Origin: Prevotella sp.
GTDB taxonomy: Bacteria; Bacteroidota; Bacteroidia; Bacteroidales; Bacteroidaceae
Assembly (NCBI GenBank): GCA_017847725.1
Contig: JAGAXW010000009.1
Coordinates: 32,618-96,617 of the forward strand
Direction: 5' to 3'
DNA: 64,000 bases
The notes beneath the pieces were generated by a model. The model saw nothing but the letters and a program-made list of their open reading frames with translations. It was not told the origin of the DNA and did not search any database. Positions 4,646 to 50,469 of this stretch are shown in pieces. Made by a program: the position numbers and the translations under genes. How positions within the stretch are numbered: position 1 is the stretch's first letter; the number at the start of each line of letters is the position of its first letter.

Positions 4646-4671
4646 ACGAATGGAATCATCATGGTACGTAA
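4646..4671 (-). promoter_or_regulatory. ECF-type promoter of the GH106 gene
   Basis: On the minus strand: TTACGTA, 16 bases, then CGT. The -35 half matches the locus consensus TTAMGTA exactly. The -10 half keeps only CGT of CGTAA. It sits about 20 bases before the GH106 start codon and is one of seven elements with the same 16-base spacing. Confidence 0.6.
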
Positions 4672-4712
4672 AAAAAAAGACATAAAACAGAAGCACTTTC
4701 GTTTTTTTTTCG

Positions 4713-4721
4713 TACATTTGC
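4713..4721 (+). promoter_or_regulatory. Housekeeping -7 element for the propeller-AraC regulator
   Basis: TACATTTGC, matching TAnnTTTGC, 35 bases before the start at 4757. The regulator is therefore probably made constitutively by the primary sigma factor, unlike the enzymes it stands beside. Confidence 0.65.
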
Positions 4722-4756
4722 CTCCCGAACAGATAAAGATCAAAGCTGACTAAACC

Positions 4757-7549
4757 ATGCGAACCACTATCCTTATTCTTTCCTGGCTATGTCTGGTTCT
4801 CCATATCGGCGCCATGCACTTCCCTCAACCCGGAAGTACATTTCGCAACCTGACCTATCGCGACGGTCTGTCAGGGACATCGGTGACCGACATCATGACC
4901 GACCATAATGGAGAGATATGGTTAGCTACCAGCAATGGTGTCAACACCTATAACGGCAAGCGGCTGGTATCCTTCCGCTTCGGCGACGGTGCGCGTCACA
5001 ACTTTGTATACCACATCTATGAGGACGACAGCCACCACATCTTTGCTACCTCCCGACAAGGAATCTACTGCATAGGCTATGGCGACAAGCAGTTTCAGCG
5101 CATCGTCCCCGAGATTCAATCTGCCGAGGCGCTGTTGCCGTGGACTGGCGACACGCTCTTCATAGGCAACCGTGACGGTCTGCATATCTATGACGGAAAG
5201 AAGCTGAAGACCATCCTCATAGCCGAGACTCCCATGGACTTAGCCAATTCCGTACGCGACATCCGACGAGGCACTGACGGCCGCGTCTGGTTTGTAAGCA
5301 AACTGGCCCTAAACGTGCTCACCCCTCAAACCGGAAAAGTGGAGAGCTGGCCATTGGCTGACAAGATGCCTGTCAGTGCGTCGCTGAGCCGTATGGCCAT
5401 CAGCAAGAACAAATGCTATATCGGCACCAAGAACGACGGCCTCTATGTCTGTGACCTGACCAGTAAGCAGGTGAAGGCAATTCCCGAGGTGGGCTACGTC
5501 GTGACATCACTGAAGATTGACAAGCAGGGGAAGCTCTGCGTGGGTACCGACGGTTCGGGTGCGTACCTTATTAATATGGCCAACGACAGCATCGAGCGAC
5601 ACTTCAGGACCGACGCCAACGAGCACGACCGCATTATTTCCAACGCCGTCTACTGCTATTATCGCGACGACCATGGTGTTGACTGGTACGGCTATTTCCG
5701 CTATGGCCTTACCCACACCTTCCACCTTGAGCAGCTGTTTCGCCCCTACCGTTACAAGTCCTTCACCACCGAGGGTATGTCGGTGCGCTGCTACAGCGTA
5801 GACAAGGACTACATCATGATAGGCACTACCGACGGATGCTATTTCATAGACCCCCGGCGTGACATCGTACACCACATCACCCCCAGCCAACTGGCGGGCG
5901 GCCACATTGTCACCAGCGTCATACGCTATGGCGACTATTATTACATCGCCACCTATGACGGCGGACTGAGACGCTTCAATCCCCAGACAATGGCCGTCAG
6001 CAAGGTGCCAGTCGATCAGGACTTCGACCACATCACGGTGACGCAGCTCGTGATTAATCCCTCGTGGAACTCGTTAGGCATTGCCACAAGCCAAGGACTC
6101 TTCGTGCTCAGGCCGGACGGTACGCTGGTGCATTTTGACGAGAGCAACTCCAAACTGGGCAGGGGCACAGTCAGCAATATCTCATTCGATGCCAAAGGCA
6201 ACGGCTGGTTGTCCAGCGAACCGGGACTGACACGCTATGACATCAAGGCACAACAGTTTCAGCAAGAAGGATTCCCCGCAGGTTTCTTCAATGACGTCAA
6301 AGGACTAAGGGGCGCGCAAGGCCACGACGGTCTGCAGTTCTTCTACAACTCGGACGACATCTATTATACCGACACCCGCCTGCAGCATTTTGGCCGCCTT
6401 GAGTTTTCCCATCTCTTAGACAAGGAACTCAGGCTCTCCTTTGTCGACGACATGCAGGGACACTACTGGGTGAGCAACGAGCGCGGACTGTTCCGTATAG
6501 ACTATGATTTGAAGCACCTGCAATATTTCGGTGAGGGCGAAGGCATCATGTGCCAGTTTATCACCGACGGTTCACTGCACATAGACCATCAGCAACAGCT
6601 TTGGATGGGCACGTCCAACGGCTTGCTGCATGCCAACCTCAAGGATATTGAGAAATGGCAGAAGAGAGTAAAGCACAACATCCTGCTCTACCAAATACGG
6701 GTGGGAGGTGAACTGCTCACCGAAATCGAAGAGGCCATGATCAGCGACCAGAAACGACTGACACTAACCTGGAACTTCACCTCAGAAGCGCTACAGGCAT
6801 TACCCGTTGTCACGGACTACAGCCGTAGTGCAGGGCGCATCTTTGAGTACCGCATCGACCACAAGGGCAAATGGGTGGCTATCAACGACGAGCAGCCTCT
6901 CGAGGTGCGCGGTCTCATGCTGGGACGCCACCTGTTATCCATCCGCGTCTCCGGATTGCAGAATACGGCCAAGGACTATGAACTCTACGTGGTACCCTCC
7001 TGGACAGCAGTTGTTGAACTTATTCTGCTGCTCGTCGCTATTGGCTTGTTCGTCTGGTGGCGCAGCTACCGACGCAACACGAAGATGCTGCTCAGCGAAC
7101 GTGACTCCATAGAGGAAGCCCTTGTAGAAATGGAGCAAGCCCACGAAATGACCGAACAGGACCAGGAACGTCAGAAGTACGAACGTGTCAGAATGAACGA
7201 GGCGGAGTGTGAGAAGATTCTGTGCCACATCCACAAATACATGGAGACACAGAAGCCGTACCAAAATCCCGAACTGAAAATGGCAGACGTGGCCGAAGTG
7301 CTACAAGTATCCCCCAGCAAACTCTCGCAGGTATTCAATCTTTACCTCAACGAAAGCTACTATGAATTCATCAATAATTACCGACTGGAGGAGTTCAAGC
7401 GCAGGGTAGATGCCGGTGACAACGAGCGCTTCACGCTACTTGCTCTTAGTGAGCAGTGTGGCTTTAAGAAATCGTCTTTCTTTGCTACATTCCGTCGGGT
7501 AGAAGGCATGACTCCGACCGAATATTTGAAGAAAAAACACAAGCTTTAA
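4757..7549 (+). CDS. Membrane-spanning beta-propeller / AraC transcriptional regulator without a kinase
   Basis: 930 residues. Order of parts: signal segment (1-18); periplasmic two-component-type propeller repeats (about 25-640, with repeated patterns such as NGEIWLATSNGVNTYNGK, DGRVWFVSK and QQLWMGTSNGLLH); a Y_Y_Y-like beta domain (about 670-745); one transmembrane helix (about 750-770, ELILLLVAIGLFVWW); a short coiled coil; and a C-terminal AraC-type double helix-turn-helix (about 835-930, MADVAEVLQVSPSKLSQVF and LSEQCGFKKSSFFATFRRVEGMTPTEYL). No histidine kinase, phospho-acceptor or receiver domain lies between the membrane helix and the DNA-binding domain, so this is not a normal hybrid two-component system. 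It would bind DNA from the membrane. It lies between the GH106 gene and the ECF sigma gene and is the best candidate for the glycan sensor of this PUL. Confidence 0.85.
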   Translation: MRTTILILSWLCLVLHIGAMHFPQPGSTFRNLTYRDGLSGTSVTDIMTDHNGEIWLATSNGVNTYNGKRLVSFRFGDGARHNFVYHIYEDDSHHIFATSRQGIYCIGYGDKQFQRIVPEIQSAEALLPWTGDTLFIGNRDGLHIYDGKKLKTILIAETPMDLANSVRDIRRGTDGRVWFVSKLALNVLTPQTGKVESWPLADKMPVSASLSRMAISKNKCYIGTKNDGLYVCDLTSKQVKAIPEVGYVVTSLKIDKQGKLCVGTDGSGAYLINMANDSIERHFRTDANEHDRIISNAVYCYYRDDHGVDWYGYFRYGLTHTFHLEQLFRPYRYKSFTTEGMSVRCYSVDKDYIMIGTTDGCYFIDPRRDIVHHITPSQLAGGHIVTSVIRYGDYYYIATYDGGLRRFNPQTMAVSKVPVDQDFDHITVTQLVINPSWNSLGIATSQGLFVLRPDGTLVHFDESNSKLGRGTVSNISFDAKGNGWLSSEPGLTRYDIKAQQFQQEGFPAGFFNDVKGLRGAQGHDGLQFFYNSDDIYYTDTRLQHFGRLEFSHLLDKELRLSFVDDMQGHYWVSNERGLFRIDYDLKHLQYFGEGEGIMCQFITDGSLHIDHQQQLWMGTSNGLLHANLKDIEKWQKRVKHNILLYQIRVGGELLTEIEEAMISDQKRLTLTWNFTSEALQALPVVTDYSRSAGRIFEYRIDHKGKWVAINDEQPLEVRGLMLGRHLLSIRVSGLQNTAKDYELYVVPSWTAVVELILLLVAIGLFVWWRSYRRNTKMLLSERDSIEEALVEMEQAHEMTEQDQERQKYERVRMNEAECEKILCHIHKYMETQKPYQNPELKMADVAEVLQVSPSKLSQVFNLYLNESYYEFINNYRLEEFKRRVDAGDNERFTLLALSEQCGFKKSSFFATFRRVEGMTPTEYLKKKHKL

Positions 7550-7678
7550 GTTTGTCTATTTTAGACAGAATTTCACAAACTACACTGATTATCAGCAACA
7601 TAATTCAGACAAACCTAAAAACAAAAGCAGTTGGAATCATCAGAGCCTCGAAACCTTTGAATGTAAAGAAATAGCCTG

Positions 7679-7687
7679 TACATTTGC
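7679..7687 (+). promoter_or_regulatory. Housekeeping -7 element for the ECF sigma operon
   Basis: TACATTTGC, 31 bases before the sigma-factor start. It overlaps the left arm of the inverted repeat at 7682-7717, so anything bound to that repeat would cover the promoter. Confidence 0.6.
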
Positions 7688-7717: not shown

Positions 7718-8236
7718 ATGGAAACGAGCAAGACAACAACCGTCAATCAGCAGGTCGCAAAACTGTATGAAAAGTACGCACACGAGCTGCACCTCTACTT
7801 CCTTAGTTACACGCACGACAACATGACTGCCGACGACATGGTACAGGATGTCTTCATCAAAGTGCTTCGCCTCGACATTATCGAAGAGGTGTCTGCCAAG
7901 CACCTGCTGTTCTGCGCAGCACGCCGCATCATGCTCGACGATGCACGCCACAAGAAGTATGTGTGTGAGGCACGCCAATACTTCCGCAACAACCTCAGCG
8001 AGGTACAGAACTGCACTATCTATGACGAACTCGAGACCCGCCAGTTCATTGAGTTCGAAGAGCGCCATCTGCTTAGCATGCCAGCCAAGCGTGCACAGGT
8101 TTATCGTCTCTGGCGTTCTGGCGAGTTTTCGTTTAAGGAAATCGGTCAGCAACTATCCATCAGCCAGCGCACTGCCGAGGCTCATGTGTATTTAGCTGTC
8201 AAGGAGTTGAAGGAGTATTTCCGCAAGGTTATCTAA
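7718..8236 (+). CDS. RNA polymerase ECF-type sigma-70 factor
   Basis: 172 residues, the normal ECF length. Sigma region 2 is at about 15-80 (LYEKYAHELHLYFLSYTHD, ADDMVQDVFIKVL, AARRIMLDDARH). Region 4 is at about 115-170 (MPAKRAQVYRLWRSGEFSFK, EIGQQLSISQRTAEAHVYLA). It is the only sigma gene in the window. No FecR/anti-sigma gene is adjacent, and neither SusC in the locus appears to carry an N-terminal signalling domain, so control is more likely at transcription than by a membrane anti-sigma factor. Its stop is 10 bases before the next gene, making an operon with the enzyme genes 8247-14631. It is the likely reader of the TTAMGTA-N16-CGTAA promoters. Confidence 0.88.
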   Translation: METSKTTTVNQQVAKLYEKYAHELHLYFLSYTHDNMTADDMVQDVFIKVLRLDIIEEVSAKHLLFCAARRIMLDDARHKKYVCEARQYFRNNLSEVQNCTIYDELETRQFIEFEERHLLSMPAKRAQVYRLWRSGEFSFKEIGQQLSISQRTAEAHVYLAVKELKEYFRKVI

Positions 8237-8246: not shown

Positions 8247-10532
8247 ATGAAGAAGATTTACTTCATCTGCTTGCTGACTTTATTAAATATAGCAGAAAGC
8301 ATGGCTGCCGACATGCTGGTTTTTGGTCAGCCGTCCAGCGAACGCAAGCATCAGTTTACGGCATCCTTTTCCGAGATTTATGACGGTGCATCTGGCGAAA
8401 CGGCCCGCCGTTTGCTTCCCCGAAAGGGAGATGACTGGCAAGGCGGTAGTATGGCCTTCACCATGGCGGTCGACCCTGTAGCACAGAACTATTTCAGCGT
8501 TCGTCTCAATGGTTCGGAAGCCGACGACTGCGTAGTGATGCTTTTTGCCGAGGGAAAACAGGTGGGCTATCGCCACTTAGGCGACTATGACCTGCTGCAC
8601 CGTGGCAACAAGGGAGAACCCTGCCTCGGCAAGTTCTACTATGTAACGCTACCGCTTCCCAAGTCTATGACGACAGGGAAGAAGCAAATCCATCTCGAGC
8701 TGCGAGGCTATGGCAACACGTGGGACTACGGTGCCACCTTCGACCGCTATCAACATGCTATGAAGACGCCCACCATTGGCTTCTATCGGGCCTACACCCA
8801 CACCGAGAAATTCTTCCGGCCCGACAAGCGTGAGCGCCAAGGCGAAGACCTGTTGGCGAAGGCTCCACTTAGGACCAATCCCGGCCGTGAGATTCTTGAC
8901 GACATCAAGCAGAAGTTGTCTGAACGCATCAACGGTCTGTTAAGGCGTCAGGGAAATCTTGGCCAACAGGACGTGTGGTTACTGGCCGATGCCTACGGTG
9001 TCAGCTGGACACCGGCCTACCGGAATCCTCTGGTCGTAAGAAAGATTGTTGCCGCTATCGATGCCTTCTGCGACAGATATGCCCAGCAACCCGACATCAT
9101 ATATAAGGATGGCAGCGTCTACAACAGCGACTGGATGACCACAGCACTATTGGCCCGTAGCGTCCGCGCACTATGGAATGAACTGGCAGACAGTCTAAGC
9201 AACACTGAGCGGCATAAAAGGTGGGTGAAACTGATGAGGGCTTCGGTAGAGTATGGTGTCACCCACCGCCGCCAGTACACCAACCAGAGCATGATTATTG
9301 ACATGGCCTCCTATGAAAACAACCGTGCCCTCATGCTTTTCGCACCTGCCGACGCTTGGCCTGAATACCAGTTGTTACAGTATCTCTACGAGTCGCTTGG
9401 CATGGCGCCCTGGTCGGGTGCTGCCCAATCCGACGGCACACAGAAGTGGCCCTTGGGACACAACTACTGGCAGCTCACGGCACGCGGACTGACCAAAGAG
9501 CTGGGCTATGTCGGCTATTATGGTGAGGTGACCGACTGGGTGTGCCACATCTACAAGGCGACCTGTCTGCCTGGTATTCCCTCGTCGGGTGATGCCAAGA
9601 TTCGCCAGCAGTTGCTCCACATCGCTGCTGCCCGCTATCCGTTCCGCTATCCCGCTATAGACGGTGACGGCTATCGCTGTATGCGCGCCGAGACACTGGT
9701 GGGCTGGCGCGACGGCAACCACTATCCCGGCGACATCATGTATGGCGACCGCGGCACGGCGTGGGACTCGAATCCCATCATGACTGCTACTCTCACCGCC
9801 GACCCGCAGGCCATCGCCATTGCCCGCCAGTCCGTCGACGACGGGCAGATATGGAACATCCTCGCCATCAAGATGCGCGAGATGGGCAACATCCGCGTGG
9901 CGCAGAGCCTGCTGCATGTGCCCGACGACTACAAAGCCCTCATGCTCGGCGACAACACTGCCGATGTGCCTGGGCTCCCCATGGCCACCAATGCCCCAGA
10001 CTACCTGTTTGCCGACGAAGAAGACGGCGTGGTAGCCCTCAAACATGGCGACGAGCGCCTTTATGTCTCGCTCTACTGGCGGGCTCGCATGGGCATCAAC
10101 AGGCTCTGCAAAATCCACCATATCACCCCGACCATGGAGCGCGTGGCCAATGTCTTTGTCGACGACGTGCGGTTTTCGCCCAGCGGCATGACCTACACCC
10201 GGCCCGACCGCAACAACATGGAGTTTGTACACTACCGTGAATTCTATCCCGACGTCCGCTCTGCCCATGCCGGCGAACAACTGCCTATCGCCAAGATTCC
10301 CGAGGGCATCAGTTTCAAGCCCGGCCAGGAGAATGTATACGCCGGCAAGGCCGACTACTACCGGCTGGACTATGGTCCGTACATCCTCTGCATGAACTGC
10401 GCAGCCGACAAGCCTGTCGACGTCAGCATCCCCAAGGGCTACATCCCGCTGGCCACGACAGCACAGCAGGGTCTCACCGCTGCCGGGCACACGCTACCAC
10501 CGAGAAGCACCATTGTATTTGTAAAACGATAA
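8247..10532 (+). CDS. Large secreted protein of unrecognised family, paralogue of the N-terminal module of 19821-24041
   Basis: 761 residues with a signal peptide ([21 protein letters not shown]). I chose ATG 8247; a GTG at 8241 would add two residues. The first ~180 residues look beta-rich. Residues about 210-560 are helical with many Trp, His and Tyr, as in alpha/alpha-toroid lyases and hydrolases. The C-terminal part is again beta-rich ([19 protein letters not shown]). It shares clear blocks with the 1406-residue protein: [11 protein letters not shown] against DGIVAVKHGDE, TNQSM against [15 protein letters not shown] against EALGLEEWTG. It sits between the sigma gene and GH95 in one operon, so a catalytic role on the same glycan is likely. 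I cannot name the reaction. Confidence 0.6.
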
Positions 10533-10542
10533 AGCCATTTGT

Positions 10543-12999
10543 ATGAAACGATTCCTTATTCTCATGTCAGTCCTTGGCTCCCTTGTCGGAGCCAAGGCTG
10601 ACAACGCTTTAAAGCTATGGTATGCCCAACCAGCCCGGGTATGGGTCGAAGCACTGCCCTTAGGCAACGGTCGACTGGGCGTCATGACCTATGGCGGTAC
10701 GGCCTCCGAAGAGCTACAGCTGAACGAAGAGACCTTCTGGGGCGGTGGGCCACACCGCAACGACAGCCCTACGGCCTTGGAGAATCTGCCGAAGGTACGT
10801 GAGCTGATTTTTGCCGGAAAGAACCGTGATGCGCAGAACCTCATCAACAAGACCTTCCTGACCCGCACCTGGGGCATGCCCTACCAGACCATCGGTTCGT
10901 TGATGCTCCGCTTCCCCGGTCACGACGCCGCTGCCGGCTACCGTCGTGAACTCGACCTGCAACGTGCCATAGCCACTACAACTTACAAGGTAGGCGATGT
11001 GCAGTACAGGCGTGAGACCTTTGCCTCGTTCGCCGACGATGTCATCATCGTCCGTATGACTGCCGACAAGCCCGCAGCCATTTCGTTCACCGCCCAGTAC
11101 CGGTCGCCCATGGCTATCACCACCCGCAAAAGTGGCAAGTCGCTCGTACTCTGTGGGCATGGTCAGGACCATGAGGGTGTCAAGGGTGTCGTACGCCTGC
11201 AGACCCACACACAGGCCAAGACCGAGGGTGGCCGCACCACGCTGACCGACTCCACACTCACTGTCACCGGTGCCGATGCCGTGACACTGTATATCTCTGT
11301 CGGCACCAACTTCGAAAACTACCTTGCCACCGGTGCTGACGAACAGAAGCGCGCTGCCAGCACTTTAAGGCAAGCCATGCGCCGTCCCTATGCCGAGGCT
11401 GTCGACCAGCATACGGCGAAGTATGCCACGTTCTTCAACCGCGTCAAGTTCGAACTGCCCTATACCAAGGCCTCCGAAGAGCAGACCCACCTCCGTGTAC
11501 AGCACTTCAACGACGGCAACGACCCACAACTGGCGGCACTCATGTTCCAGTACGGCCGCTACCTGCTCATCTCGTCGTCGCAGCCCGGTGGCCAGCCGGC
11601 CAATCTACAGGGCATCTGGAACAAGGATGTGCTGGCACCGTGGGACGGCAAGTACACCATCAATATCAATTGCGAGATGAACTACTGGCCGGCTGAGCGT
11701 GCCAACCTCACCGAGATGGGCGAACCGCTGTTCCGGATGGTCGAGGAACTGAGCCAGAGCGGCCAGCAGACAGCCCGCACCATGTACGATTGCCGTGGCT
11801 GGATGGCCCATCACAACACCGACATCTGGCGCTGCACCGGTATGATCGACGGCGCTTTCTGGGGCGGCTGGCCCAATGGTGGCGGCTGGCTCTCGACTCA
11901 CCTGTGGGAGCACTACCTCTACCAGGGTGACCGGGACTTCCTGCGCCGTGTCTATCCCGTCCTGAAGGGCGCAGCCGACTTCTACCTCGACTATCTCGTA
12001 CCCCATCCGCAGAAAGGCTGGCTGGTCACCGTACCTTCCACATCGCCAGAGCACGGTCCCGGTGCCGAAAATGCCTCCGGTGTCAGCATCACGGCTGGAT
12101 CGGCCATGGACACCCAGATTGTCTTCGACGTCTTCACCCAGTGTCGTGAGGCCGCCCGCGTACTGGGTATTGACGCAGCCTATCAGGACACCCTCCGCCA
12201 AGCACTCGACCGACTGGCACCGATGCAGATAGGCCGTTACAACCAGTTGCAGGAGTGGCTCGACGACCTTGACGACCCCAACGACCACCACCGCCACGTC
12301 AGCCACATGTACGGTCTGTTCCCGTCGTCACAGATATCTCCCGTTGACAATCCCTTGCTCTTCCAGGCCGCCCGCAATTCCCTGTTGCAGCGTGGTGACG
12401 AGGCTACCGGATGGAGCATCGGCTGGAAGATAAACCTCTGGGCCCGACTGCTCGACGGCAACCACGCCTATAAGATTCTCTCCAACATGCTCAAGCTGCT
12501 GCCCAGCGACGCTCATGCCAGTAAAGTCAAGGACGGCCGCACCTTCCCCAACCTGTTCGATGCCCATCCGCCATTCCAGATTGACGGCAACTTCGGCATG
12601 ACCAGCGGTGTGTGCGAAATGCTGTTGCAGAGTCATGACGGTTGTGTGCAACTACTTCCCGCCCTGCCCGAGGCCTGGCCCGAAGGTAAGATGAAGGGCC
12701 TGCTGGCCCGTGGCGGTTTCGAAGTAGACCAAGAGTGGAATGGTGGTCAACTGAAGTGTGCCAACATCCTGTCCCGTCTGGGCGGTCAGTTGCGCCTGCG
12801 TTCCTACGTGCCCTTGAAGGGCAAGGGACTACGTGCCGCCAAGGGTGCCAACCAGAACCCTCTGTTCTTTAAGCCCCAGCTCAAGCAGCCCTTGGTTTTC
12901 AAGGAGATTCATCCACAGTATCCCGAGCTGAAACGTGTCTACGAGTATGACATCGACACCGAGGCCGGAAAAACCTATTACATAGAAAGAGGTATATAA
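10543..12999 (+). CDS. GH95-family alpha-L-fucosidase / alpha-L-galactosidase
   Basis: 818 residues, normal for GH95, with a signal peptide ([19 protein letters not shown]). The family opening is clear ([45 protein letters not shown]). Expected catalytic residues of this inverting family are present: the NIN pair (Asn374, Asn376) in [12 protein letters not shown], the general acid Glu503 in [10 protein letters not shown], and Asp681 in [13 protein letters not shown]95 enzymes remove alpha-linked L-fucose or L-galactose. The L-galactose-type catabolic trio at 55267-58126 makes the second possibility worth considering. It lies ten bases after the preceding gene, in the ECF operon. Confidence 0.9.
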
Positions 13000-13002
13000 G
13001 TT

Positions 13003-17067: not shown

Positions 17068-17095
17068 TTACGTCAGAAGTGATATTTCTACGTAG
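17068..17095 (-). promoter_or_regulatory. ECF-type promoter of the GH51 gene
   Basis: On the minus strand: CTACGTA, 16 bases, CGTAA, ending 27 bases before the GH51 start. It is back to back with the plus-strand copy at 17106-17133; only 10 bases separate the two. Confidence 0.7.
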
Positions 17096-17105
17096 CGCAC
17101 CACTT

Positions 17106-17133
17106 TTAAGTACAGTTGTCGGCTGGAGCGTAA
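17106..17133 (+). promoter_or_regulatory. ECF-type promoter of the 854-residue secreted protein gene
   Basis: TTAAGTA (17106-17112), 16 bases, CGTAA (17129-17133), ending 44 bases before the start codon. It matches the elements at 19758 and 27655 at nearly every fixed position. Confidence 0.75.
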
Positions 17134-19742: not shown

Positions 19743-19757
19743 AGCATCATAAGTCTA

Positions 19758-36500: not shown

Positions 36501-36680
36501 ACGGTAGACACCATTGGAGTCGGTCAGCACCGAGATGCCAGGACCAGAGGCCACACTGACTCCCTGTAAGGGCTGACGGGTCGTCGCATCCGTCACACGA
36601 CCAGTGACATACTCTTGGGCAACAGCGGTTCCCACGGGTATAAAGAGGCAGGATAAGAAGATTGCAATATGTCGTTTCAT
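33600..36680 (-). CDS. SusC/RagA-family TonB-dependent outer membrane transporter
   Basis: 1026 residues. Signal peptide, then a CarboxypepD_reg-like domain (about 22-95, VTGRVTDATTRQPLQGVSVA), plug (about 110-230, LFIRGYHSLNLNSQPLIVID and IYGSKGANGALIITTKRG) and a large beta barrel to the C-terminus (QIGLKLNL). No N-terminal STN signalling domain is seen, so it cannot be the trigger of an anti-sigma pathway. It pairs with the SusD downstream. Confidence 0.95.
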   Translation of the reverse strand: MKRHIAIFLSCLFIPVGTAVAQEYVTGRVTDATTRQPLQGVSVASGPGISVLTDSNGVYRVPVVSFDGRLQFSNPGRVSREAPLQGRQTLDVVLYSNAFESLKDGEGSLSSTNSMSFDEGMAARYGGDIRVIQRSNMAGVGANLFIRGYHSLNLNSQPLIVIDGVIQNTEYVESVFQGFYINPLSNIDCNDIEKVVVLKNATAIYGSKGANGALIITTKRGKSVSTKIDVNISCGFDFKPRLPRMLSADQFRSYASEMLKGTVSGLAAADKSEGFLNDEPDLSKNISYNTYHNNHDWTDDVYRVGNHQYYGLNVEGGDDIAKYALSVSYMMGKGQIKETDYDRLSTHFNADVLLSKRITLAAGFDFTYITRQLVDAGVNEYTSAPYLALIKSPLLTPYQYTRDGREYTTKLSDVDVFGISNPTSLLTDVVNKYTQYRFGANIMPRWAVTDNLDLSLRLAYNMNAVKEHYYSPLEGVAPQTDAAGNVWENTVKDQSINQGSFFIDGRVHFHKLFGGIHGLDAAIGYRMQKNVYKSNYGEGHNTGSDKVVNLSASLDGKMVDGRKTTVNNVALYAQASYNYLDKYSVWGVLTAESCSTFGKKADGGLKMFDGVWGVFPSVGASWNIASERFFKPVTFIDDMKLRVEYGLSGNDALNAVNRFSYLQAINYFGVANGLQIGNLDNQKQKWETTSKFNVGLDLTMLNDRLSLSFDYFHHKTTDLLMLSDADLLTGISSRLTNGGSMTNNGFEVSVNARLLNLRKLKWNSELGLSHYKNKLTSLPGGSQILNVAGGSILLQEGSSVGTFYGYRTESVFATEEEAVASGLRTWNTTKSQLLDYHAGDVHFVDLDGNSIIDEDDRTVIGNANPDITGSWGNRLSYGPFTLDVLFSFSFGADVYNYQRHMLESMTNLQNQSAAVANRWKYEGQQTSIPRAVYGDPMRNSRFSDRFIESASYVKLKEVRLSYQFQLPWHFISGGLAWISVGNLCTWTRYLGSDPEVSYGTSPLTQGIDYGVSPLSRNMQIGLKLNL

Positions 36681-36703
36681 AACCTATGTATTTATATTTC
36701 TAA

Positions 36704-38404: not shown

Positions 38405-38450
38405 GCTAGAAAATTTTCTTCTTTGTTAATTCATATCAGGAAACGCAGAC

Positions 38451-40004: not shown

Positions 40005-40035
40005 AACTTATCTCTTTTCACTTATCACTATTCAC

Positions 40036-43000: not shown

Positions 43001-43314
43001 TGCAGAAGGTTACTGTCGTCGTCCAGCTTTACCTTGAATACCGTGCGGTTTCCGATATTCAAGGTCTGTGGCTTATATCCGATATAGGTTATGCGCAGTC
43101 GGTGTTTGGTGTTCTTTACTGTCAGCGCAAAGGCACCCTCCATATTGGTGGTTGTACCGCCTACGACACGGTTGCCATTATCTATCTCGACTACCGAAGC
43201 TCCTATCACAGCACCCAGTTCATCAGTCACCATACCCGTCACCATTTTCTGTGCGAGTGCCAATGAGACCTGTCCCACCAAGACAGCCAATAACAAGGAA
43301 TATCTATATTTCAT
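40036..43314 (-). CDS. SusC/RagA-family TonB-dependent outer membrane transporter
   Basis: 1092 residues. Signal peptide ending SLALA, CarboxypepD_reg-like domain (about 22-100, VTGMVTDELGAVIGASVVEI), plug (about 125-260, GQMRVRGTSTILGNAEPLVV and ALWGSRGANGVIQIKTKRGS) and a barrel with terminal DWMLGVQVSF. No STN domain. The two SusC proteins of the operon differ clearly along their length, so they probably import different fragments of one glycan. Confidence 0.95.
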   Translation of the reverse strand: MKYRYSLLLAVLVGQVSLALAQKMVTGMVTDELGAVIGASVVEIDNGNRVVGGTTTNMEGAFALTVKNTKHRLRITYIGYKPQTLNIGNRTVFKVKLDDDSNLLQETVVTGKRRSSDETFSIAQREVSQAQTTFNLIEVEGTSFTSADDALQGRIAGLDIVGGGAPGQGGQMRVRGTSTILGNAEPLVVVNDIPFESTELSNFNFDSATDEQYADLLNVNVDDILEITVLKDAASTALWGSRGANGVIQIKTKRGSMGKTKVSYSYKLTGATLPKGYSLLNGDDFSMMMKQAYFGMTQLSGNSSHSDYDFKEFQYDPNFSEYQMYNNNTDWVDAVTQKGWTHDHYLTVQGGGERATFYLSGGYYTRTGTQIGQRYDRYSTRAQLDYHVSDRMMVRTEFQFTYGNNDQNYESLLNIAYKKMPNLSIYKQTADGLDTGEYYNILSSSSLSSQQKNLKNPVALGNLAKDNTKSYRVLPTIRLQYDFFDPQKIFLRYNGYVALDMNNNHRERYLPSEATNSDWSSTSVNNSSDQNSEALTIMTENKLTWRSTFANRNHDLQAMASWNTSHSTSTSQYTVSYGHPSSSLTDASSTATLQEIKNSNSSSRSVSMVGRVHYGFKGRYILDANIRMDGSTKFGDDNRYGWFPGLSAKWIISDEPLFNKIRPVLSLFAIRPSWGVAGRQPSSNYLYFNRLAIDSYGYMGTSAVSPSNIRLTDLKWERITSTNFGIDLELWNGLFTATFDIYHKRTNDMLFPSLSIASTSGFSTLNYKNVGVMDNDGWELSLSLNKFIKTKKFDVSFSVNFASNKNTIKEMDQVVLDKYNNVSVFNNTSSYPTRLQLNNSIGSIYGFRYKGVYSYSYDNYENAEAEGKSSPVARDANGNVVKDYEGKPKRMYYYYKTTAYQFQGGDAIYEDVNHDGSIDEYDVVYLGNCNPKLTGGFSLNLHYANFYLTAFCNFRYGNKIINEARRSLENMYAGYNQSTSVNWRWRKEGDVTEVPRAVYQEAYNSLPSDRYVEDGSFLRLKYINLRYSFDKKLIKPLGLTSASLYLTLNNLFCITKYSGVDPEVSIGDFGMCIDNSSTPRSKDWMLGVQVSF

Positions 43315-43334
43315 AATTGTCAGTTTTTCGATGA

Positions 43335-45962
43335 TTAATTCCCTAAATATTCATTCAAGTCCTTATACAAGTCTGTATGCCACTGGGCCGAAGGAGTTTC
43401 GTACCATAAAGGACGGTCTATCTGATGCACCACCGTACACGTATAGTTCTCAATAAGCGTTGAATTCTGGATATCATACTTAGTAGCACTGCCAGAGGCA
43501 TTGTTGAACTTGAGGTCACGGCCTATCAGATTATAGCGGCCGTCAGCGACCTGCACACTCGCCGTATTGCCTATGTTGTCTCTCACACTCAGCGTATTGC
43601 CCGTGTTGGTTACAAAAACAGGATAGAACAGTTGCGTCTTCTCGTTGATGGTTTCCGTCAGATATTCTTTATAACTCTCTTTCTTACCTTTGATGAACAC
43701 GCTATTATCCTGGATGTGGTAACGGATGAAACGACGCAGCTTGCTGAGTGCTATCTGGTAGAGCGAGTCAATATGCGTTTCCAAACCTCCAGCCGACTGG
43801 TTATAGAGGTCCTCAAGCTCTTCCGGAGTCGGTATGTAGTGCTTGCTCTGGGCCTCCTTGAGCTGCTCATTGGTAGGTACGTAGAGGGTATAGTCGTACT
43901 GCTGCAGGAAGGATACATAAGGGTCGCCAGGGATAATGCTCGATGTGGCACTATTGCTGAAGATGTTTGAGGCATTGCACAAGCGAAGGAACTCGTAGAA
44001 GGGACTGCTGGCATTGAGCACGCCAGAATTACTGCTCTGGTTCAGGTTCTGATAGGTAGAAGTCAGCGTGTTCTGCAATATGCCGTCAACAATATAGGAG
44101 ACACCGTTGGTCTTCTCGCTGGCATCATTAATAACCACCTTCGCGGCATTGCCCATACCACTGATCGTACTGCCTGTCGACGCCCCCGTTATACGCAGCG
44201 GCATGTAACCCATCGTGACAAAATACTCCTGCCCATCGGCCACCGCCTGGCGAAACTCCTCGTTCGAATTGACGACGAGGGTGTGGGTGCGCAGAATATC
44301 CTCCAGGCGATTGTTGATAATCTTTGTATTCGTGATGGTTTCTATCAGTTCGTCGTTGTCCAGACGATGCACCTCGGCCTGGATGTCGCCATTAAGTCCT
44401 ATCGAGAAGTTCCAGTAGGCACGGCTCGCAGTCTGCTTGAACATCGACACCGGGTCGACATAATGCGCCATCTTCGCATCCGGAGTGATAAAGAACTGAT
44501 AGCGGCTCAGCAGCGAGCGCAGATAGTACATGAACTGCGTATGGCTGTCGTTCATGCCGATGTTGAAGATTTGGTTCGACAAATCCACCTTCGCAGGCCC
44601 CATCACCGAGCGGTAGTCCAATGGTGGCAACACCTTGTTGATGACAAACACCACACCGTTGCGGGCCACATAGCGGTCTACTATATCACTCTCGCTGACG
44701 TTCATGTCGTAGCCCGCCTCATCCTTCATGATGGAGAAGTCGTGAGGCAGTGAGGATAACAGCGAATACTTCTGATGGTTCTTCACCAGGTCGGCCACGA
44801 TATTGTCGGGCACCTCGTCCCAGTTGCCGCCGAAGCTCTTCCAAATGTCAGCACCTTCACCCGTGGCACTGAAATAGTTCTCAAGAGCCTCATTGGTGGG
44901 CACAAACATGACGCCCATGTCACCTTGGTAAGGCGCTTCCGTCGAGTTGTTCTCCTTGGCCTTGCTCTGATAAGCGTTCCACCCCGGGTCAAAGTACAGA
45001 CACGCATTGCTCTTATCGTTACCCAGCGCGTCAATCTTCAGGGCACCTACTATATTGACGGCCTTGTTGTTCAGGTTCTGCGGGTGCTCGTTGAAATAGC
45101 GCAACGTATATACGAGCGGATTCTGCTGATAGACCACGGGGATGGCAAAGCGGTTCATCAGACTGGCATACCGTGAGGTCGAGGCATTGTTACAGATAAA
45201 TCCGGCCATGGTCTCCGGCGGAGTGATCAGGCCTTCCAGTTCGTGCAGGTAACCGTTCTTACAGGTAATGTCCTGATTGATAATCTTGTTGCCATACAGC
45301 GAGGGAGTCGAACTGGTGGCCTTGCCGTTGGTAATGAAACTGACATCGTCGTTGGTGACATTCAGGTCGCTCAGCACTTTCGGGAAGAACTGCGTCAGCG
45401 TAACGGTCGACGCATCTTGCAGTAGGCGCACCGTGTCTCCCTCCAAGGCTTCAAAGTAGGCATTGCCGGGGAATCGAGCCAGCAGGTCGGCCTTCTTGTA
45501 CAGGGGAATACTGTCTGTCACGCCGAAATAGGTAGAGCGCCTGAGAACGGTACCCTTGATGTCGCCTTCACACAGTCGCTCTATCAGCTGGGCATTGCTG
45601 ATACGTCCCAGACTGATCATCATGTTCTTCTCCGTAGCCGACATTTCCTCGTAAGAGGTCGGACCGCTACCTTTGGCAAGATTGGCAGCAAAGTATTCGT
45701 CGAAGGCATTGTCGCTGGTGAAGAACAAGGTATTCGACCCCGTACGGCGCATCACTTCCGTCAGTCCGCAGTCGTCTATCAGGCGGGTATAATAGTTACA
45801 GTCGCCACGACCCTTCAGATAGTCGTAAATATTCTCGCCCAACCAGTCGGGCTGCTCGTTGTCCAACTTTTCGAAACTGTCTGTACAGGATGTCAGTGTT
45901 GTACCAACTGCCAACAGCCAACAGCTGACTACCAAAAAAATCTGTTTCATGCTTTTATCCAT
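43335..45962 (-). CDS. Multi-FAS1-domain lipoprotein
   Basis: 875 residues, the longest fasciclin-type protein here. The start may be ATG 45962 or the in-frame ATG 45950 (MKQIFLVVSCWLLAVG). Lipobox LTSC. Several FAS1-like units occur along its length: about 55-250 (NTLFFTSDNAFDEYF), about 265-450 (GVMFVPTNEALENYF and VARNGVVFVINKVLPP), a degenerate one (about 460-640), and about 640-830 (YDYTLYVPTNEQLKEAQS). No catalytic motif. Likely surface-exposed; the role in glycan capture or complex assembly is inferred from its SusCD neighbours. Confidence 0.82.
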   Translation of the reverse strand: MDKSMKQIFLVVSCWLLAVGTTLTSCTDSFEKLDNEQPDWLGENIYDYLKGRGDCNYYTRLIDDCGLTEVMRRTGSNTLFFTSDNAFDEYFAANLAKGSGPTSYEEMSATEKNMMISLGRISNAQLIERLCEGDIKGTVLRRSTYFGVTDSIPLYKKADLLARFPGNAYFEALEGDTVRLLQDASTVTLTQFFPKVLSDLNVTNDDVSFITNGKATSSTPSLYGNKIINQDITCKNGYLHELEGLITPPETMAGFICNNASTSRYASLMNRFAIPVVYQQNPLVYTLRYFNEHPQNLNNKAVNIVGALKIDALGNDKSNACLYFDPGWNAYQSKAKENNSTEAPYQGDMGVMFVPTNEALENYFSATGEGADIWKSFGGNWDEVPDNIVADLVKNHQKYSLLSSLPHDFSIMKDEAGYDMNVSESDIVDRYVARNGVVFVINKVLPPLDYRSVMGPAKVDLSNQIFNIGMNDSHTQFMYYLRSLLSRYQFFITPDAKMAHYVDPVSMFKQTASRAYWNFSIGLNGDIQAEVHRLDNDELIETITNTKIINNRLEDILRTHTLVVNSNEEFRQAVADGQEYFVTMGYMPLRITGASTGSTISGMGNAAKVVINDASEKTNGVSYIVDGILQNTLTSTYQNLNQSSNSGVLNASSPFYEFLRLCNASNIFSNSATSSIIPGDPYVSFLQQYDYTLYVPTNEQLKEAQSKHYIPTPEELEDLYNQSAGGLETHIDSLYQIALSKLRRFIRYHIQDNSVFIKGKKESYKEYLTETINEKTQLFYPVFVTNTGNTLSVRDNIGNTASVQVADGRYNLIGRDLKFNNASGSATKYDIQNSTLIENYTCTVVHQIDRPLWYETPSAQWHTDLYKDLNEYLGN

Positions 45963-45977
45963 TACGCTATTCGTTAA

Positions 45978-48038
45978 TTAGTGCTGGTCCTCATCCTCAA
46001 TGAGGTCAGTAGGAATAAACTCAATGTAGTCGAAGTCATAGCTTCCCGGACGCATCGCCACCAGACGCAACTGATGCGTACCGTCGGCCGTCCAGTTGAA
46101 AATGCCCAGGATGCGACGCAGGCGGGTATCCACATTGCGGGCTGTAAGGTTGTCGCCATAGCCCAGATTGTGGTAGTTCCATCCGACAAAACTGTTGGGG
46201 GCCTTCATAAACCCGTGGTTACGCAGGTTCTTGTCGTTCTCCAGTCCGTAAGGGTCTTCTTCGCTTTCACCCTTGTTAGCAAAGGCCATCGACCCCGACT
46301 CCTGAATAGCCAGCCAATCCTGAATCCAGCCCGTATTACCATTGTATGCCGACACGCGGGTGTCGATAGGTATGCCGCAAGGCTGACCGTCGATATAGAC
46401 CTGAACCACGGCGCCGCCGGCATCGGTCGTATAGCCCAGACGCACCTCGTAGTTGCCTTTCGGCAGCGGGCCCACAGTCAGCTTAAAGTCGAAGTTACCA
46501 TGCAGCGTCCATCGGTCGCCCAGAAAGTAGTCGTGCGGAGTACGACCCTCATAGCCTATGTAGGTCGTGCTATTGCTGATGAAGTCTATATTTTTACAGA
46601 ATCCGTCGGGAATGGCAGAATAGAACCAGTTGTAGCCACGGTCGCCATCGTAGAAGCACCCGTTGTTCACAGCCTCACTCATATAGGTACGGATGTCGGT
46701 ACGAATGCGGCGGTGGAACACCTGCGCCTTCACCTCCGCGCTGTACACCAGCATATTACTGATGCCGTGCAGCACACCGTTCTGGCAGTACTGGTCGGCC
46801 TCGCCGTCCACCACGCGTATGATGGGCCATCCATTCAGCTCGTCGGCAACGGCCATCGAGCTGTATTGAGGGTCGTAGGCTGTGTAAGGGCAATTCAGCA
46901 CGGCAACGGTCTTAGACGAGCTCTGGTCGAAATCCACAATATTGGCATTCTGGATATTCAGCAGCATGCCGGGCTGCATCGACACATAATATTGGTCTAC
47001 ACGATAGTTTTCGTCGCAGATGTAGTCGTGCCAGGTAAACCAGTCGTAGGATGACACAAAGCCGCGATTCAGCGCCAGCTTCGACTTGGCCAGCTGCACG
47101 TTGTAGAGATGATAGCCGACAAACTGGTGCAGACTGTTCGCGGGCGAAGTCTCATCGTCGTCAGTGGCATCAGGATAGACCTTCTTGGCATATTGTCGCA
47201 AATCGTCCAATGAGTGTATGTCGGCACAACGTGCCATCACGTCATTACTCTCCGCAAAACAGGTATAGAGAAAACGCTTCTGTTTGGGCCACTCGCTATA
47301 GCGCGTCGCCGTGCTGCCAACGACTTCACCACTGGGCAGCAGCGTACTGGTAGGCATGACATAGCTGGCATCCTCAAAAACCAGCATGGAATCGCGCCAA
47401 CCTGTTGCGAACAACGCCTCACCGAAGATGCTGTACTGGGGGTGCGACGCGACAAAGTCTGCCAGCAGGTCGTTGCTGCCCTCGAGGACTTCGTTGATGA
47501 CATGCGTCACACCGTTTATCATTTCGATATTGGCCGAAGTCAGTGCAGCATAACTATCCCCGTTCTTGATCGACCAGTTACCTGATCCTGTCTGTACGTG
47601 AGCCGTCAGATAGCGGCCCACCATGTTCTGAGCCGGGAAAGAACCTTCCGGGAAATCCTCAGTCTTATAGGCAGAGACCGCCATTGCCTGACCGTCAATC
47701 AGATGATAGAACACCATCTCGCGGAGTGCGGTGGTATCCATCTCAGCCAAGGTCTTACCCTTTCCTGTGAGCCATTGTGTCATGGCGTCGTTGGTCGGGA
47801 CAAACGCAGTATACTTGCCATAGGACTCCAACAACGTAAACGTACCGGAGATGCGCATTGCTTCCGTAAAGAGCGACAACTCGGGCTGTTCGGCCAGATA
47901 GTCGGCAATCATCTGCCCCTCAAAAGTGCGATAGCTGTCGCCCACCTCGTCAGAATCCTTACAAGCCGTTAGCATTGCGGTTCCCGCAAGAACGGCAAGC
48001 AACACGACCCGTGCCTTATTATACCATTTGTTTTGCAT
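45978..48038 (-). CDS. FAS1-domain lipoprotein with C-terminal beta-sandwich
   Basis: 686 residues with lipobox LTAC (Cys26). The first FAS1 domain is at about 50-190 (ELSLFTEAMRISGTFTLLES, YTAFVPTNDAMTQWL, MINGVTHVINEVLEG) and the second, longer and degenerate, at about 190-430. The last ~200 residues look like a carbohydrate-binding beta sandwich (NFDFKLTVGPLPKGNYEVRL, VVQVYIDGQPCGIP, RLVAMRPGSYDFDYIEFIP). It is 15 bases upstream of the next FAS1 gene in the operon. Confidence 0.82.
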   Translation of the reverse strand: MQNKWYNKARVVLLAVLAGTAMLTACKDSDEVGDSYRTFEGQMIADYLAEQPELSLFTEAMRISGTFTLLESYGKYTAFVPTNDAMTQWLTGKGKTLAEMDTTALREMVFYHLIDGQAMAVSAYKTEDFPEGSFPAQNMVGRYLTAHVQTGSGNWSIKNGDSYAALTSANIEMINGVTHVINEVLEGSNDLLADFVASHPQYSIFGEALFATGWRDSMLVFEDASYVMPTSTLLPSGEVVGSTATRYSEWPKQKRFLYTCFAESNDVMARCADIHSLDDLRQYAKKVYPDATDDDETSPANSLHQFVGYHLYNVQLAKSKLALNRGFVSSYDWFTWHDYICDENYRVDQYYVSMQPGMLLNIQNANIVDFDQSSSKTVAVLNCPYTAYDPQYSSMAVADELNGWPIIRVVDGEADQYCQNGVLHGISNMLVYSAEVKAQVFHRRIRTDIRTYMSEAVNNGCFYDGDRGYNWFYSAIPDGFCKNIDFISNSTTYIGYEGRTPHDYFLGDRWTLHGNFDFKLTVGPLPKGNYEVRLGYTTDAGGAVVQVYIDGQPCGIPIDTRVSAYNGNTGWIQDWLAIQESGSMAFANKGESEEDPYGLENDKNLRNHGFMKAPNSFVGWNYHNLGYGDNLTARNVDTRLRRILGIFNWTADGTHQLRLVAMRPGSYDFDYIEFIPTDLIEDEDQH

Positions 48039-48089
48039 TTTTATATTTTTAAAGTTTTTACCACTTTACGCTTGTTTGTTATTAACTAC

Positions 48090-50414
48090 TTAATAGGATA
48101 TCAGCGTCGTGCCATCACGCACCACCGCATAACACGCATTAACCTCCATACCCTGATAGGCCATCCTGGTCTTGACAGGCGCAGAGAAGATATAGTCGGT
48201 CTGTCCGCTCTTTAACTGCACCTTTATGCCCACTGCATCCCGACCTTCCGGCGTAAAGAACGAAACAGCAAGTATCACCGAGTCGCTCTCATGGTCGGTA
48301 GGCTCAAAGACGGCTACGAAAGGATGATCCCAAGCATTGCCATGCTGGCGTGCGACATACGTGAGCACAGGCTGCTGCGCCACGTCATAGGGGTAGAGGC
48401 TTTTATGCCGCTCATACTCCAGGTTGGCAGGCGACAGGGCCCTGAACACCTCGCGGTTCTCGTCGCCGCGCATCCACATCGTCGTCGTAACATGACGGCC
48501 GTCGGCCCACTTCATACGGAACACCGTCTTGACATCAGCTGATGTCACAGTGCTTTTCTTGTCATATATATAGGAATAGGCATACAGATGCCCTCCGGCA
48601 AAAGCCAACTCTTCTGTGGGCTGGAGGGGGAGCGGTATTCCGTCGGCCCTCAGCAGCTCCATCTCCTGCCCGATGTTGTGGTAGAAGTAGTCGTGGAACC
48701 TGTCCTTCCCGTCCTTACGCCTGCTCCTGAAGATGTCCACATAATATCCGCCGCTCTGTGTCTTCACAATCCCGTTAGTGCGCACCTGCTCAGCATGGGT
48801 TTCCGGCTCCAGAAAACCCACCTGACTGCAGGTGGCGTCAGCACTATGTCCACAGAACTGGACTTCGAAGCCATGTTGCGACATCATGACTGGATAACTT
48901 GACATGCCGTCGACACAAACGGTGTTATGTGCAGGAAACTGCGAATAATACTCGCTGTAGTCCAGTCCGCTATAAAGAGAGCGGCCGATGCCTGCGTCTG
49001 GTCCCACGACATAGCCCCTGCCATACAACTCCATCGAGATGCCGTTAGCATGCTGGTGATTCCCCAAAGAGCCGTTTAGCGATATCATCAGGTCATGCCG
49101 GCGGTCCATACCTGTGCGCTGCACCAGCCACGAGACTTTGGGCGAATGAAACGTCGGACTGACATAACGGCCAATCAAATCGGCCGGAGCGTCAGGGTGC
49201 ACAGCCTTCAGCAACGAGTCGGCACGCTGTTCCAGCCGTCCGTCGCCGTGCCGCTGGGCATAGGCTCGGAGCTTCTCTATGGCGTCCCGGCGCAGATACT
49301 CGGGGTGGGTATCGCCAAAGCCACATATCATGCGGTTCGGAAAGAAATACTGAGGCTGCGCAAACACCGCCTCGACAATGGCTGGCACCTCACGAAACAA
49401 ATCTATGCCCGCCTCACGATCCATCCTATCGGCCAGGATAACGAAGTCGGCCACCACACCTACGCTGTATCCAGGCGACTCACACCATATATGCGTCGAC
49501 GGGTCGAACCCATAGGCTGCCAGTTGGCGTACCCCCCACTGGCGTATACTCTGTCGTCTGACGATGTAGTCCAGATAGTAGTCGCGTCCACATCCGTCGG
49601 CATAGCAACTGTCAGCCTGAAGTACCAGGGCAATGCGCATAATGAAGGTGGCTTGTATGAGATTCCAGTTGTTGTGAGGCACACCGTTGGCAATAATGTT
49701 TTCCGCCCATTTCTTCAGTGCTGCGTCATAGATGTGGCGATGCACCCCAAACGAAGGATATGCGGTGAGCAGCGGATACATCTCCGTCAGCTCGTTAATG
49801 GCATCCTCATGAATTACCTCGAAGGTCGTCAGTCCCACAAGCGTCTGCTGATGGCCGTGGTTCAGGTCTATGGGTACATGGCGGCCATAGATACCCTTCA
49901 AGTAGGTGTCGAACACACCGAAAGCCATCCGCCCATAGTCCTCCCCGCAGCCGTCGGCATACAGGCGTGCGGCGTCGCGAGCCACACCCAGTATCTGGCG
50001 GTTCACGGAGCTGATGTTGCAGCCCGTCTTCGAGGGGACGGTACGCTCCATCTTCCCACTCTTCTTGTTGACAAATGTCACGCTGCCGCGCTCGTCGTCA
50101 TCGTAGGGCACAAGCCGCTCCAGTGGCGGCCGGTCATAGTCTGTCGCCATGCTACGCGAACCGTTATACTTCACCGTGGCCCACTGGGCGCGTTCGCCCC
50201 CCAGATGACTGAACGACTCGCCATCCACATAGACATCTGCAGCATGGCTGGCCCAGTACATCTGCAGGCGGCTCAGCAGCCAGTCCGGCTGCCGTCTACA
50301 GCTGTCTAGACAGGCATCCGTCTGCCGCTTCAGCCGCATGCGTTCAGCCACAGAAAGCCCCGCCGAGGTAGACAGGGCCGACAGCAATAAGAATAAAGCA
50401 ACAATACTTCTCAT
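48090..50414 (-). CDS. Heparinase II/III-family protein, probable polysaccharide lyase
   Basis: 774 residues with a signal peptide ending TSAG. An alpha/alpha toroid (about 100-400; DLNHGHQQTLVGLTTFEVIH, NNWNLIQATFIMRIALVLQA, THIWCESPGYSVGVVADF) is followed by the beta-sandwich heparinase II/III domain (about 430-640; GSLGNHQHANGISMELYGRG, YYSQFPAHNTVCVDG). The NHQHANG His and the downstream HNT region match the active-site layout of this superfamily, which cleaves uronic-acid-containing glycans by beta-elimination. It is the first gene of the 20-kb operon under the ECF-type promoter at 50442. Which lyase family and which uronic acid are unknown. Confidence 0.85.
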   Translation of the reverse strand: MRSIVALFLLLSALSTSAGLSVAERMRLKRQTDACLDSCRRQPDWLLSRLQMYWASHAADVYVDGESFSHLGGERAQWATVKYNGSRSMATDYDRPPLERLVPYDDDERGSVTFVNKKSGKMERTVPSKTGCNISSVNRQILGVARDAARLYADGCGEDYGRMAFGVFDTYLKGIYGRHVPIDLNHGHQQTLVGLTTFEVIHEDAINELTEMYPLLTAYPSFGVHRHIYDAALKKWAENIIANGVPHNNWNLIQATFIMRIALVLQADSCYADGCGRDYYLDYIVRRQSIRQWGVRQLAAYGFDPSTHIWCESPGYSVGVVADFVILADRMDREAGIDLFREVPAIVEAVFAQPQYFFPNRMICGFGDTHPEYLRRDAIEKLRAYAQRHGDGRLEQRADSLLKAVHPDAPADLIGRYVSPTFHSPKVSWLVQRTGMDRRHDLMISLNGSLGNHQHANGISMELYGRGYVVGPDAGIGRSLYSGLDYSEYYSQFPAHNTVCVDGMSSYPVMMSQHGFEVQFCGHSADATCSQVGFLEPETHAEQVRTNGIVKTQSGGYYVDIFRSRRKDGKDRFHDYFYHNIGQEMELLRADGIPLPLQPTEELAFAGGHLYAYSYIYDKKSTVTSADVKTVFRMKWADGRHVTTTMWMRGDENREVFRALSPANLEYERHKSLYPYDVAQQPVLTYVARQHGNAWDHPFVAVFEPTDHESDSVILAVSFFTPEGRDAVGIKVQLKSGQTDYIFSAPVKTRMAYQGMEVNACYAVVRDGTTLISY

Positions 50415-50441
50415 GTCGTATCCACTATGATTTTTTATTGA

Positions 50442-50469
50442 TTACGCACATCAGACGGATTCTACCTAT
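50442..50469 (-). promoter_or_regulatory. ECF-type promoter of the heparinase-SusCD-FAS1-GH97 operon
   Basis: On the minus strand: ATAGGTA, 16 bases, CGTAA (50442-50446). The -35 half departs from TTAMGTA at two positions but keeps GTA. Spacing and -10 are exact. It lies 28 bases before the heparinase start. No TAnnTTTGC element is evident in this interval on the minus strand. Confidence 0.6.

Follow-up and report, generated by a model that had tools for sequence, protein, structure and literature searches.

How are the scattered genes of a polysaccharide utilization locus (PUL) in a Prevotella genome switched on together, and by which regulator? The locus lies in a stretch of 64,000 nucleotides (the window), positions 32618-96617 of a 96.6-kb contig (JAGAXW010000009.1, assembly GCA_017847725.1) in a 2.39-Mb genome with a completeness rating of 81%. 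An initial annotation of the window described seven transcription units preceded by one bipartite element, TTAMGTA-N16-CGTAA, and interpreted it as an extracytoplasmic function (ECF)-type promoter read by the sigma factor encoded at 7718-8236. Our analysis supports this interpretation on sequence grounds, adds an eighth site and brings in a component that had been overlooked, a membrane sensor encoded at 4757-7549, without which the circuit would have no input. The best explanation of the whole is very probably a chain in which the sensor would activate the sigma gene and the sigma factor would in turn read the PUL promoters.

One bipartite element at eight sites

The element is present at all seven places first described, with exactly 16 nt between GTA and CGT in each. 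On the minus strand it precedes the GH106 gene (4644-4671; a sigma-type pattern match, TTACGTA-N16-CGTTT, 18 nt before the ATG), the GH51 gene (17068-17095; CTACGTA-N16-CGTAA, 26 nt before the ATG at 17041) and the heparinase-SusCD operon (50442-50469; ATAGGTA-N16-CGTAA, 27 nt before the ATG). On the plus strand it precedes four genes for secreted-looking proteins, of 854 aa (17106-17133; TTAAGTA-N16-CGTAA, 44 nt before the ATG), 1406 aa (19758-19785; 35 nt), 578 aa (24267-24294; 47 nt) and 750 aa, the last a CBM6 protein (27655-27682; 55 nt). TTAMGTA is complete in five of the seven, the exceptions being the GH51 and heparinase sites, and CGTAA in six, the GH106 site having CGTTT. The count of seven was one short: a further copy (48093-48066, minus; TTAAGTA-N16-CGTAA) lies inside the heparinase-SusCD operon, 27 nt before the ATG of a 686-aa fasciclin-domain gene, and its -35 block shares bases with the heparinase stop codon. 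Across the eight sites the gap between element and ATG is 18-55 nt, and a vegetative-type TAnnTTTG box is found in none of these gaps. A possible weaker copy, ATAAGTA-N16-CGTAT, just 3' of the 1406-aa gene and about 270 nt before the 578-aa gene (24042-24069, plus), is doubtful. The GH51 and 854-aa gene promoters stand back to back (17068-17133), with their -35 blocks about 10 bp apart.

Chance as the origin of the element was set aside on window counts, the spacing profile, genome counts and the held-out genomes described below. In its loose form, GTA-N16-CGTAA, the element occurs eight times in the window against 1.02 expected, a number reached in none of 100 shuffles, and when spacings of 4-39 are scanned, 16 gives eight matches and every other spacing four or fewer. 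Seven of the eight loose matches precede genes; the eighth (25774, minus) lies inside an open reading frame (ORF) and looks like chance. In a genome-wide search, which the initial annotation had proposed as a check, the strict form, TTAMGTA-N16-CGTAA, has six matches, five in the PUL and the sixth within an antisense 184-aa ORF, and the loose form has 33, eight in the window and 25 outside. We fetched 30 of the 33, 23 from outside the window and seven from within it; 15 of the 23 fetched outside matches lie inside ORFs and 8 do not, and following starts were sought for plus-strand outside matches only. One of these 8 (G000 contig C15:22096-22119; L006 1501-1524) stops 30 nt short of a 438-aa ORF and may be another regulon site elsewhere or a product of chance. 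The reversed pattern has no match in the genome, and none of the 199 other genus genomes has more than two strict matches. In a de novo search for two-block motifs, run locus by locus, the element was the top-ranked motif of the window and one of the five best in the relative G149; in the other loci it was inconspicuous.

The element in genomes that carry the sensor

The sensor gene defines the sample of relatives. Orthologs at E <= 1e-60 are present in 12 genomes of a first set of 200 from the genus (own genome included in both counts), and at E <= 1e-100 in 24 (~6%) of a larger draw of 398 genus genomes. The 12 new carriers form a held-out set, picked by the sensor gene alone and not by the element or the sigma gene. 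Twenty loci of other, more distant ECF sigma factors served as controls, one of which (G153) has a weak partial sensor match (E 1.7e-7). ORFs shorter than 150 aa were excluded from the counts of upstream regions in relatives.

A sigma factor similar to that of the window is encoded in the fetched sensor locus of 10 of the 12 first-set genomes, the exceptions being G193 and G123 (the latter at a contig end), and beside the sensor in 9 of the 12 held-out genomes, which makes 19 of the 24 sensor genomes. In the held-out G618 the contig breaks off within the sensor gene and a different contig encodes a sigma factor with 40% identity, and in G741, rated 76% complete, no such sigma factor was found; the third case, G692, is taken up below.

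In 15 loci with the sensor or a close sigma factor, TAMGTA-N16-CGT occurs 7 times in 207 upstream regions, and every other spacing from 8 to 27 gives at most one match. The 260 upstream regions of the 20 control loci contain no match at any of these spacings. Enrichment in relatives is clear only after loci are pooled or the held-out genomes are added. The latter contain 39 matches to GTA-N16-CGTA in 274 upstream regions, with at least one in each of the 12 genomes, against a mean of 1.95 at 19 other spacings (Poisson P=1.4e-36, a rough value because some sites, for example in G692 and G599, are orthologous copies by descent). All 39 are retained when A or C is required before GTA, with 0-3 matches at other spacings. 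Conservation extends beyond the search pattern: T follows CGTA at 37 of the 39 sites and stands three bases before GTA at 35, and A is found 8, 9 and 10 nt after the -10 at 33, 33 and 30 sites, respectively. The held-out elements end 10-82 nt before the ATG, 18 of the 39 within 25 nt, and since the A's are fixed relative to the -10 while the distance to the ATG varies, transcription may well start there. The relatives' consensus is about TTRMGTA-N16-CGTAT.

Most of these properties are those of an ECF promoter. The element consists of two unequal blocks at a fixed spacing of about 16 with a CGT-type -10, the gaps in the window and in the held-out genomes leave a transcription start before the ATG, and the downstream A's and the recurrence in relatives point the same way. 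An AAC-type -35 is common, not universal, in ECF promoters, and the -35 of the element (TTAMGTA, or TTRMGTA in relatives) has no AAC. Hence, the assignment to ECF-type promoters stands, but the -10 and its spacing had been called their hallmark, which is too strong given that the -35 lacks the AAC typical of many of them.

Sigma factor, sensor and the DNA between them

The sigma factor (7718-8236, plus; 172 aa) has sigma-70 regions 2 and 4 only (Pfam) and, at about 170 aa, the build of an ECF sigma factor; the general ECF superfamily model TIGR02937 is the sole one above cut-off among the 25 of 31 NCBIfam models listed. It was named as the reader of the promoters in the initial annotation and remains the best-supported candidate for all eight, given that the element recurs with sensor and sigma factor and is absent near the 20 loci of other ECF sigma factors. 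The own genome has a single match to it at E <= 1e-8. Close relatives are few, with G108 (43%) and G160 (38%) among the 200 genus genomes and G306 (37%) and G336 (32%) further among 399 family genomes; a profile scan of genome contigs gave one distant Lentisphaerae match, which was not used. In a tree, 12 sigma factors of the sensor-paired kind fall on one side of a branch and 18 others on the other, although the branch is weak because its support is only 77/59, and for one of the 12 (G336) the contig shows no sensor. The window sigma factor sits on a long branch (1.05), which together with the altered -10 of the window fits co-divergence of sigma factor and promoter, in a single case. No anti-sigma factor was recognised after the sigma gene in the window by Pfam or NCBIfam; the next gene (8247-10532) encodes a 761-aa protein without a Pfam or NCBIfam family at E <= 0.001, the threshold for all Pfam domain negatives here. 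Neighbouring genes in the 12 paired-kind loci were assessed from their size and start; in 7 of these loci the sigma gene is followed on its own strand by an ORF of SusC size (1043-1105 aa).

The sensor (4757-7549, plus; 930 aa) combines Reg_prop propeller repeats with a C-terminal HTH_18 (AraC-type) domain (Pfam), and its periplasmic part matches the hybrid two-component system (HTCS) sensor structures 4a2l, 3v9f and 3ott. Its start is hydrophobic and signal-peptide-like, and hydropathy gives one strong hydrophobic segment (residues 748-766), the predicted transmembrane helix. Neither the sensor nor its ortholog in G626 has a histidine kinase or receiver domain detectable by Pfam. On contig C51 of G160 (L097, L098) the sensor gene is in two pieces with a stop codon within the second match, and looks broken or mis-sequenced. 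A second AraC-type domain, 35% identical over 101 aa to that of the sensor (BLAST), is encoded in the window by an ORF at 62370-63998 (plus, open at the window end).

Neither regulatory gene is itself preceded by TTAMGTA-N16-CGTAA; both have a vegetative-type -7 box instead, TACATTTGC, at 4713-4721 (plus) for the sensor gene and 7679-7687 (plus) for the sigma gene. A conserved operator-like element, GTCTATTTTAGAC (7554-7566, plus), lies 123 bp before the sigma -7 box and has one mismatch to the relatives' consensus, CTAAWTTAGA. This consensus stands 121-123 bp before a TAnnTTTG box in 16 of 20 sigma loci and 132 bp before it, about one helical turn more, in 2 further loci of the 20. It was first noticed in first-set loci, and 9 of the 20 tested loci are held-out: all 9 have it within one mismatch, 8 of them at 121-123 bp. 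Allowing one mismatch, it is absent from all 18 other sigma genes; these, the same 18 as in the tree, come from 17 loci, 3 of the 20 control loci having given no sigma factor by hidden Markov model. In G108, where sensor and sigma genes are 7 kb apart, CTAAWTTAGA stays with the sigma gene. Internal repeats upstream of the sigma gene, in 17 sequences anchored on CTAAWTTAGA and scored without a null model, have best offsets of 44 and 21 bp, and 21 bp is the mean distance of tandem sites, predicted as direct repeats, for HTCS AraC domains in the available text of Ravcheev 2013 (PMC3878776). In eight relatives (G095, G083, G086, G149, G054, G768, G591 and G769) the sigma promoter is overlapped by a dyad of the type CTGCAAACAAG...CTTGTTTGCAG with a run of T behind it; it may be only the terminator of the sensor gene, or alternatively an attenuator or operator.

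We infer the following circuit. The sensor, made from its own vegetative promoter, would detect an oligosaccharide with its periplasmic propeller, and its AraC-type domain would bind the operator-like stretch starting about 122 bp upstream of the sigma -7 box. This would activate the vegetative promoter of the sigma gene, so that the sigma level would be set by transcription, no anti-sigma factor having been recognised beside the gene. RNA polymerase carrying the 7718-8236 sigma factor would then read TTAMGTA-N16-CGTAA as -35 and -10 and switch on the eight scattered PUL promoters.

A serious rival is that the sensor itself reads the element, as a tandem operator of its AraC-type domain with GTA half-sites 20 bp apart and a vegetative promoter downstream. 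The 20-bp offset from GTA to GTA is close to the ~21-bp direct repeats predicted for HTCS AraC domains (PMC3878776), the element turns up in loci that encode the sensor, and in G692 both the sensor and the sites are present where no such sigma factor was found. An activator site, however, needs a promoter between itself and the start, for which the 18 held-out sites within 25 nt of the ATG, the nearest at 10 nt, leave no room, and at the eight window sites that interval holds no vegetative box. The halves, TTAMGTA and CGTAW, are moreover unequal, with differing conserved flanks, and the separate, putative repeat region at the sigma promoter would be a better fit for an AraC-type domain. An HTCS-type direct-repeat operator at the PUL promoters was rejected on these grounds, unequal halves and closeness to the ATG, and we regard direct reading by the sensor as improbable. 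Somewhat less probable still is an ECF promoter whose reader is one of the other ECF sigma factors encoded in the genome. Bacteroidota genomes can encode many, with 50 given for B. thetaiotaomicron in the text available of PMC12596196, and G692 retains sites without the 7718-type sigma factor, but the sites cluster with the sensor-sigma pair, the TAMGTA form is missing from the control loci and the own genome has only the one match to this sigma factor. A post-transcriptional feature of the 5' leader, such as a translation signal, or a chance pattern would suit the closeness to start codons but is very improbable, given that elements of one fixed internal spacing stand anywhere from 10 to 82 nt before the ATG and that the sites follow the regulator module rather than ECF-bearing loci generally.

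Several observations weigh against the chain from sensor to sigma gene to PUL promoters. One is G692, which is rated 98% complete and keeps the sensor, the operator element and three sites, but in which no such sigma factor was found, only a distant match (E 2e-7). There the sigma promoter runs straight into coding DNA before susD (contig C37, ~22620-23760; L169) and the usual susC-sized gene is missing; a deletion or a false join is possible. The fetched stretches of G306, G052, G014, G193, G054 and G083 contain no site with spacing 16, G083 having one copy with spacing 15. The -10 is CGTAA at seven of the eight window sites and CGTAT in relatives. Upstream of the sigma gene, CTAAWTTAGA is missing in G014 and present in G306 only with two mismatches, no TAnnTTTG was found at the G729 sigma gene, and the repeats in the window are less regular than those of relatives, an offset of 48 bp scoring nearly like 21. 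ORFs shorter than 110 aa were not called, which leaves room for a very small anti-sigma factor. Held-out genes with a site have TAnnTTTG in the 100 nt before the ATG as often (9 of 39) as those without (54 of 235); hence, held-out sites are not marked by the lack of a vegetative box, and that argument is kept for the window only. In the 200 whole genomes the strict CGTAT pattern is found in 4 of the 12 sensor carriers and in 8 of the 188 other genomes (Fisher 0.003), so it is enriched with the sensor but not exclusive to it. A nearly identical sequence, TTTAAGTATTAATCAAACTTAAAACGTAT, is shared by G149, G162, G167 and G035, three of them without the sensor, and is another conserved feature that fits the pattern.

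The PUL of the window comprises GH106, GH95, GH39, GH51, heparinase-like and CBM6 proteins, two SusCD pairs and three fasciclin-domain proteins. The predicted regulon comprises the GH106 gene (1863-4625, minus; Pfam), the gene for a GH51-type arabinofuranosidase (14615-17041, minus; Pfam), the four genes for secreted-looking proteins (17178-29990, plus) and the operon with one heparinase-like, three fasciclin-domain, two SusC and two SusD genes (31892-50414, minus). The genes for the 761-aa protein, which looks secreted, GH95 and GH39 (8247-14631, plus) lie downstream of the sigma gene and are probably co-transcribed with it. Neither SusC has a Pfam STN domain. The fasciclin-domain proteins (PF02469; 36704-38404, 43335-45962 and 45978-48038, minus) stand in one SusCD operon, which seems unusual for a PUL. 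Seven enzyme or transporter genes examined in G768 and G599 encode alginate-lyase-like, GH97, GH127 and DUF4861 proteins, an SDR enzyme, an MFS transporter and a PfkB kinase (Pfam), and the element lies directly upstream of three, those for the alginate-lyase-like, SDR and PfkB proteins. As a guess, the gene content points to a branched, uronate-containing glycan as the substrate.

Relation to known systems

Promoters of Bacillus SigW have the form TGAAAC-N16-CGTA; they share with the element the 16-nt spacer and the CGTA -10, and differ in the -35, which is TTAMGTA here. Among the Bacteroidota a comparable case is SigW-1 of B. thetaiotaomicron with PUL59, where an ECF sigma factor is likewise proposed to read PUL promoters. 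The available text of that 2025 paper (PMC12596196) ties two ECF sigma factors of the species, one of them with a PUL, to a non-canonical -30/-10 promoter with TGTT at about -10, a motif given there as not statistically significant, whereas the element described here is of CGTA type with a fixed N16. Ryan 2020 (PMC7366714) states that none of the ECF sigma factors of B. thetaiotaomicron had a known recognition motif, while EcfO of B. fragilis did, and the prediction of ECF promoters is called challenging in the portion available of Ravcheev 2013 (PMC3878776). Here a different, predicted promoter of a PUL-borne ECF sigma factor, with fixed spacing, is readable from sequence, which opens the way to compiling regulons for one genome after another and testing them. 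If the circuit is as proposed, every copy of the sensor-sigma pair should carry its own readable regulon, and the pair would offer a small, sugar-controlled expression system for trial in gut Bacteroidota.

As far as the available text goes, three types of PUL control were described in 2013: SusR, HTCS and sigma/anti-sigma (PMC3878776). The FecI/FecR-type PUL systems of Bacteroides resemble the locus in having an ECF sigma factor inside the PUL and a regulon of SusCD and enzyme genes; they differ in that the window has no anti-sigma factor recognised beside the sigma factor, no STN domain in its SusCs and a DNA-binding sensor as the partner. With HTCS the locus shares the propeller sensor, the C-terminal AraC-type domain and possibly a 21-bp repeat offset at the sigma promoter, but its sensor has no detected kinase or receiver and would target the sigma gene rather than the PUL promoters. 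SusR-like regulators are also one-component membrane sensors with a cytoplasmic DNA-binding end, and the DNA-binding domain of SusR is said in the same partial source to resemble no other known (PMC3878776); the window sensor has an AraC-type domain, would act via a sigma factor and goes with best-scoring repeat offsets of 21 and 44 bp, not 67 or 77. Outside carbohydrate use, HrpL controlled by HrpRS and SigE controlled by CseBC are cases, in the available part of PMC8999054, of an ECF gene being switched on by a separate signalling cascade, with no anti-sigma factor; here the setting is a Bacteroidota carbohydrate PUL and the first step a single membrane AraC-type sensor. A sensor-sigma PUL circuit of this kind was not found in the literature searched, mostly open-access and in part as excerpts; an ECF group that matches this sigma factor may already be described elsewhere. 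A sigma factor paired with a sensor that has no detected kinase points to a form of regulation not covered by the three types of 2013, and we consider it likely, judging from sequence comparison, that this is a fourth mode of PUL control, in which an HTCS-type sensor without a kinase would leave the PUL genes untouched and turn on an anti-sigma-free ECF sigma factor that drives at least eight TTAMGTA-N16-CGTAW promoters. Each part resembles known kinds, namely PUL-borne ECF sigma factors, HTCS sensors, AraC-type repeats and transcriptionally controlled ECF genes; it is the combination that appears new.

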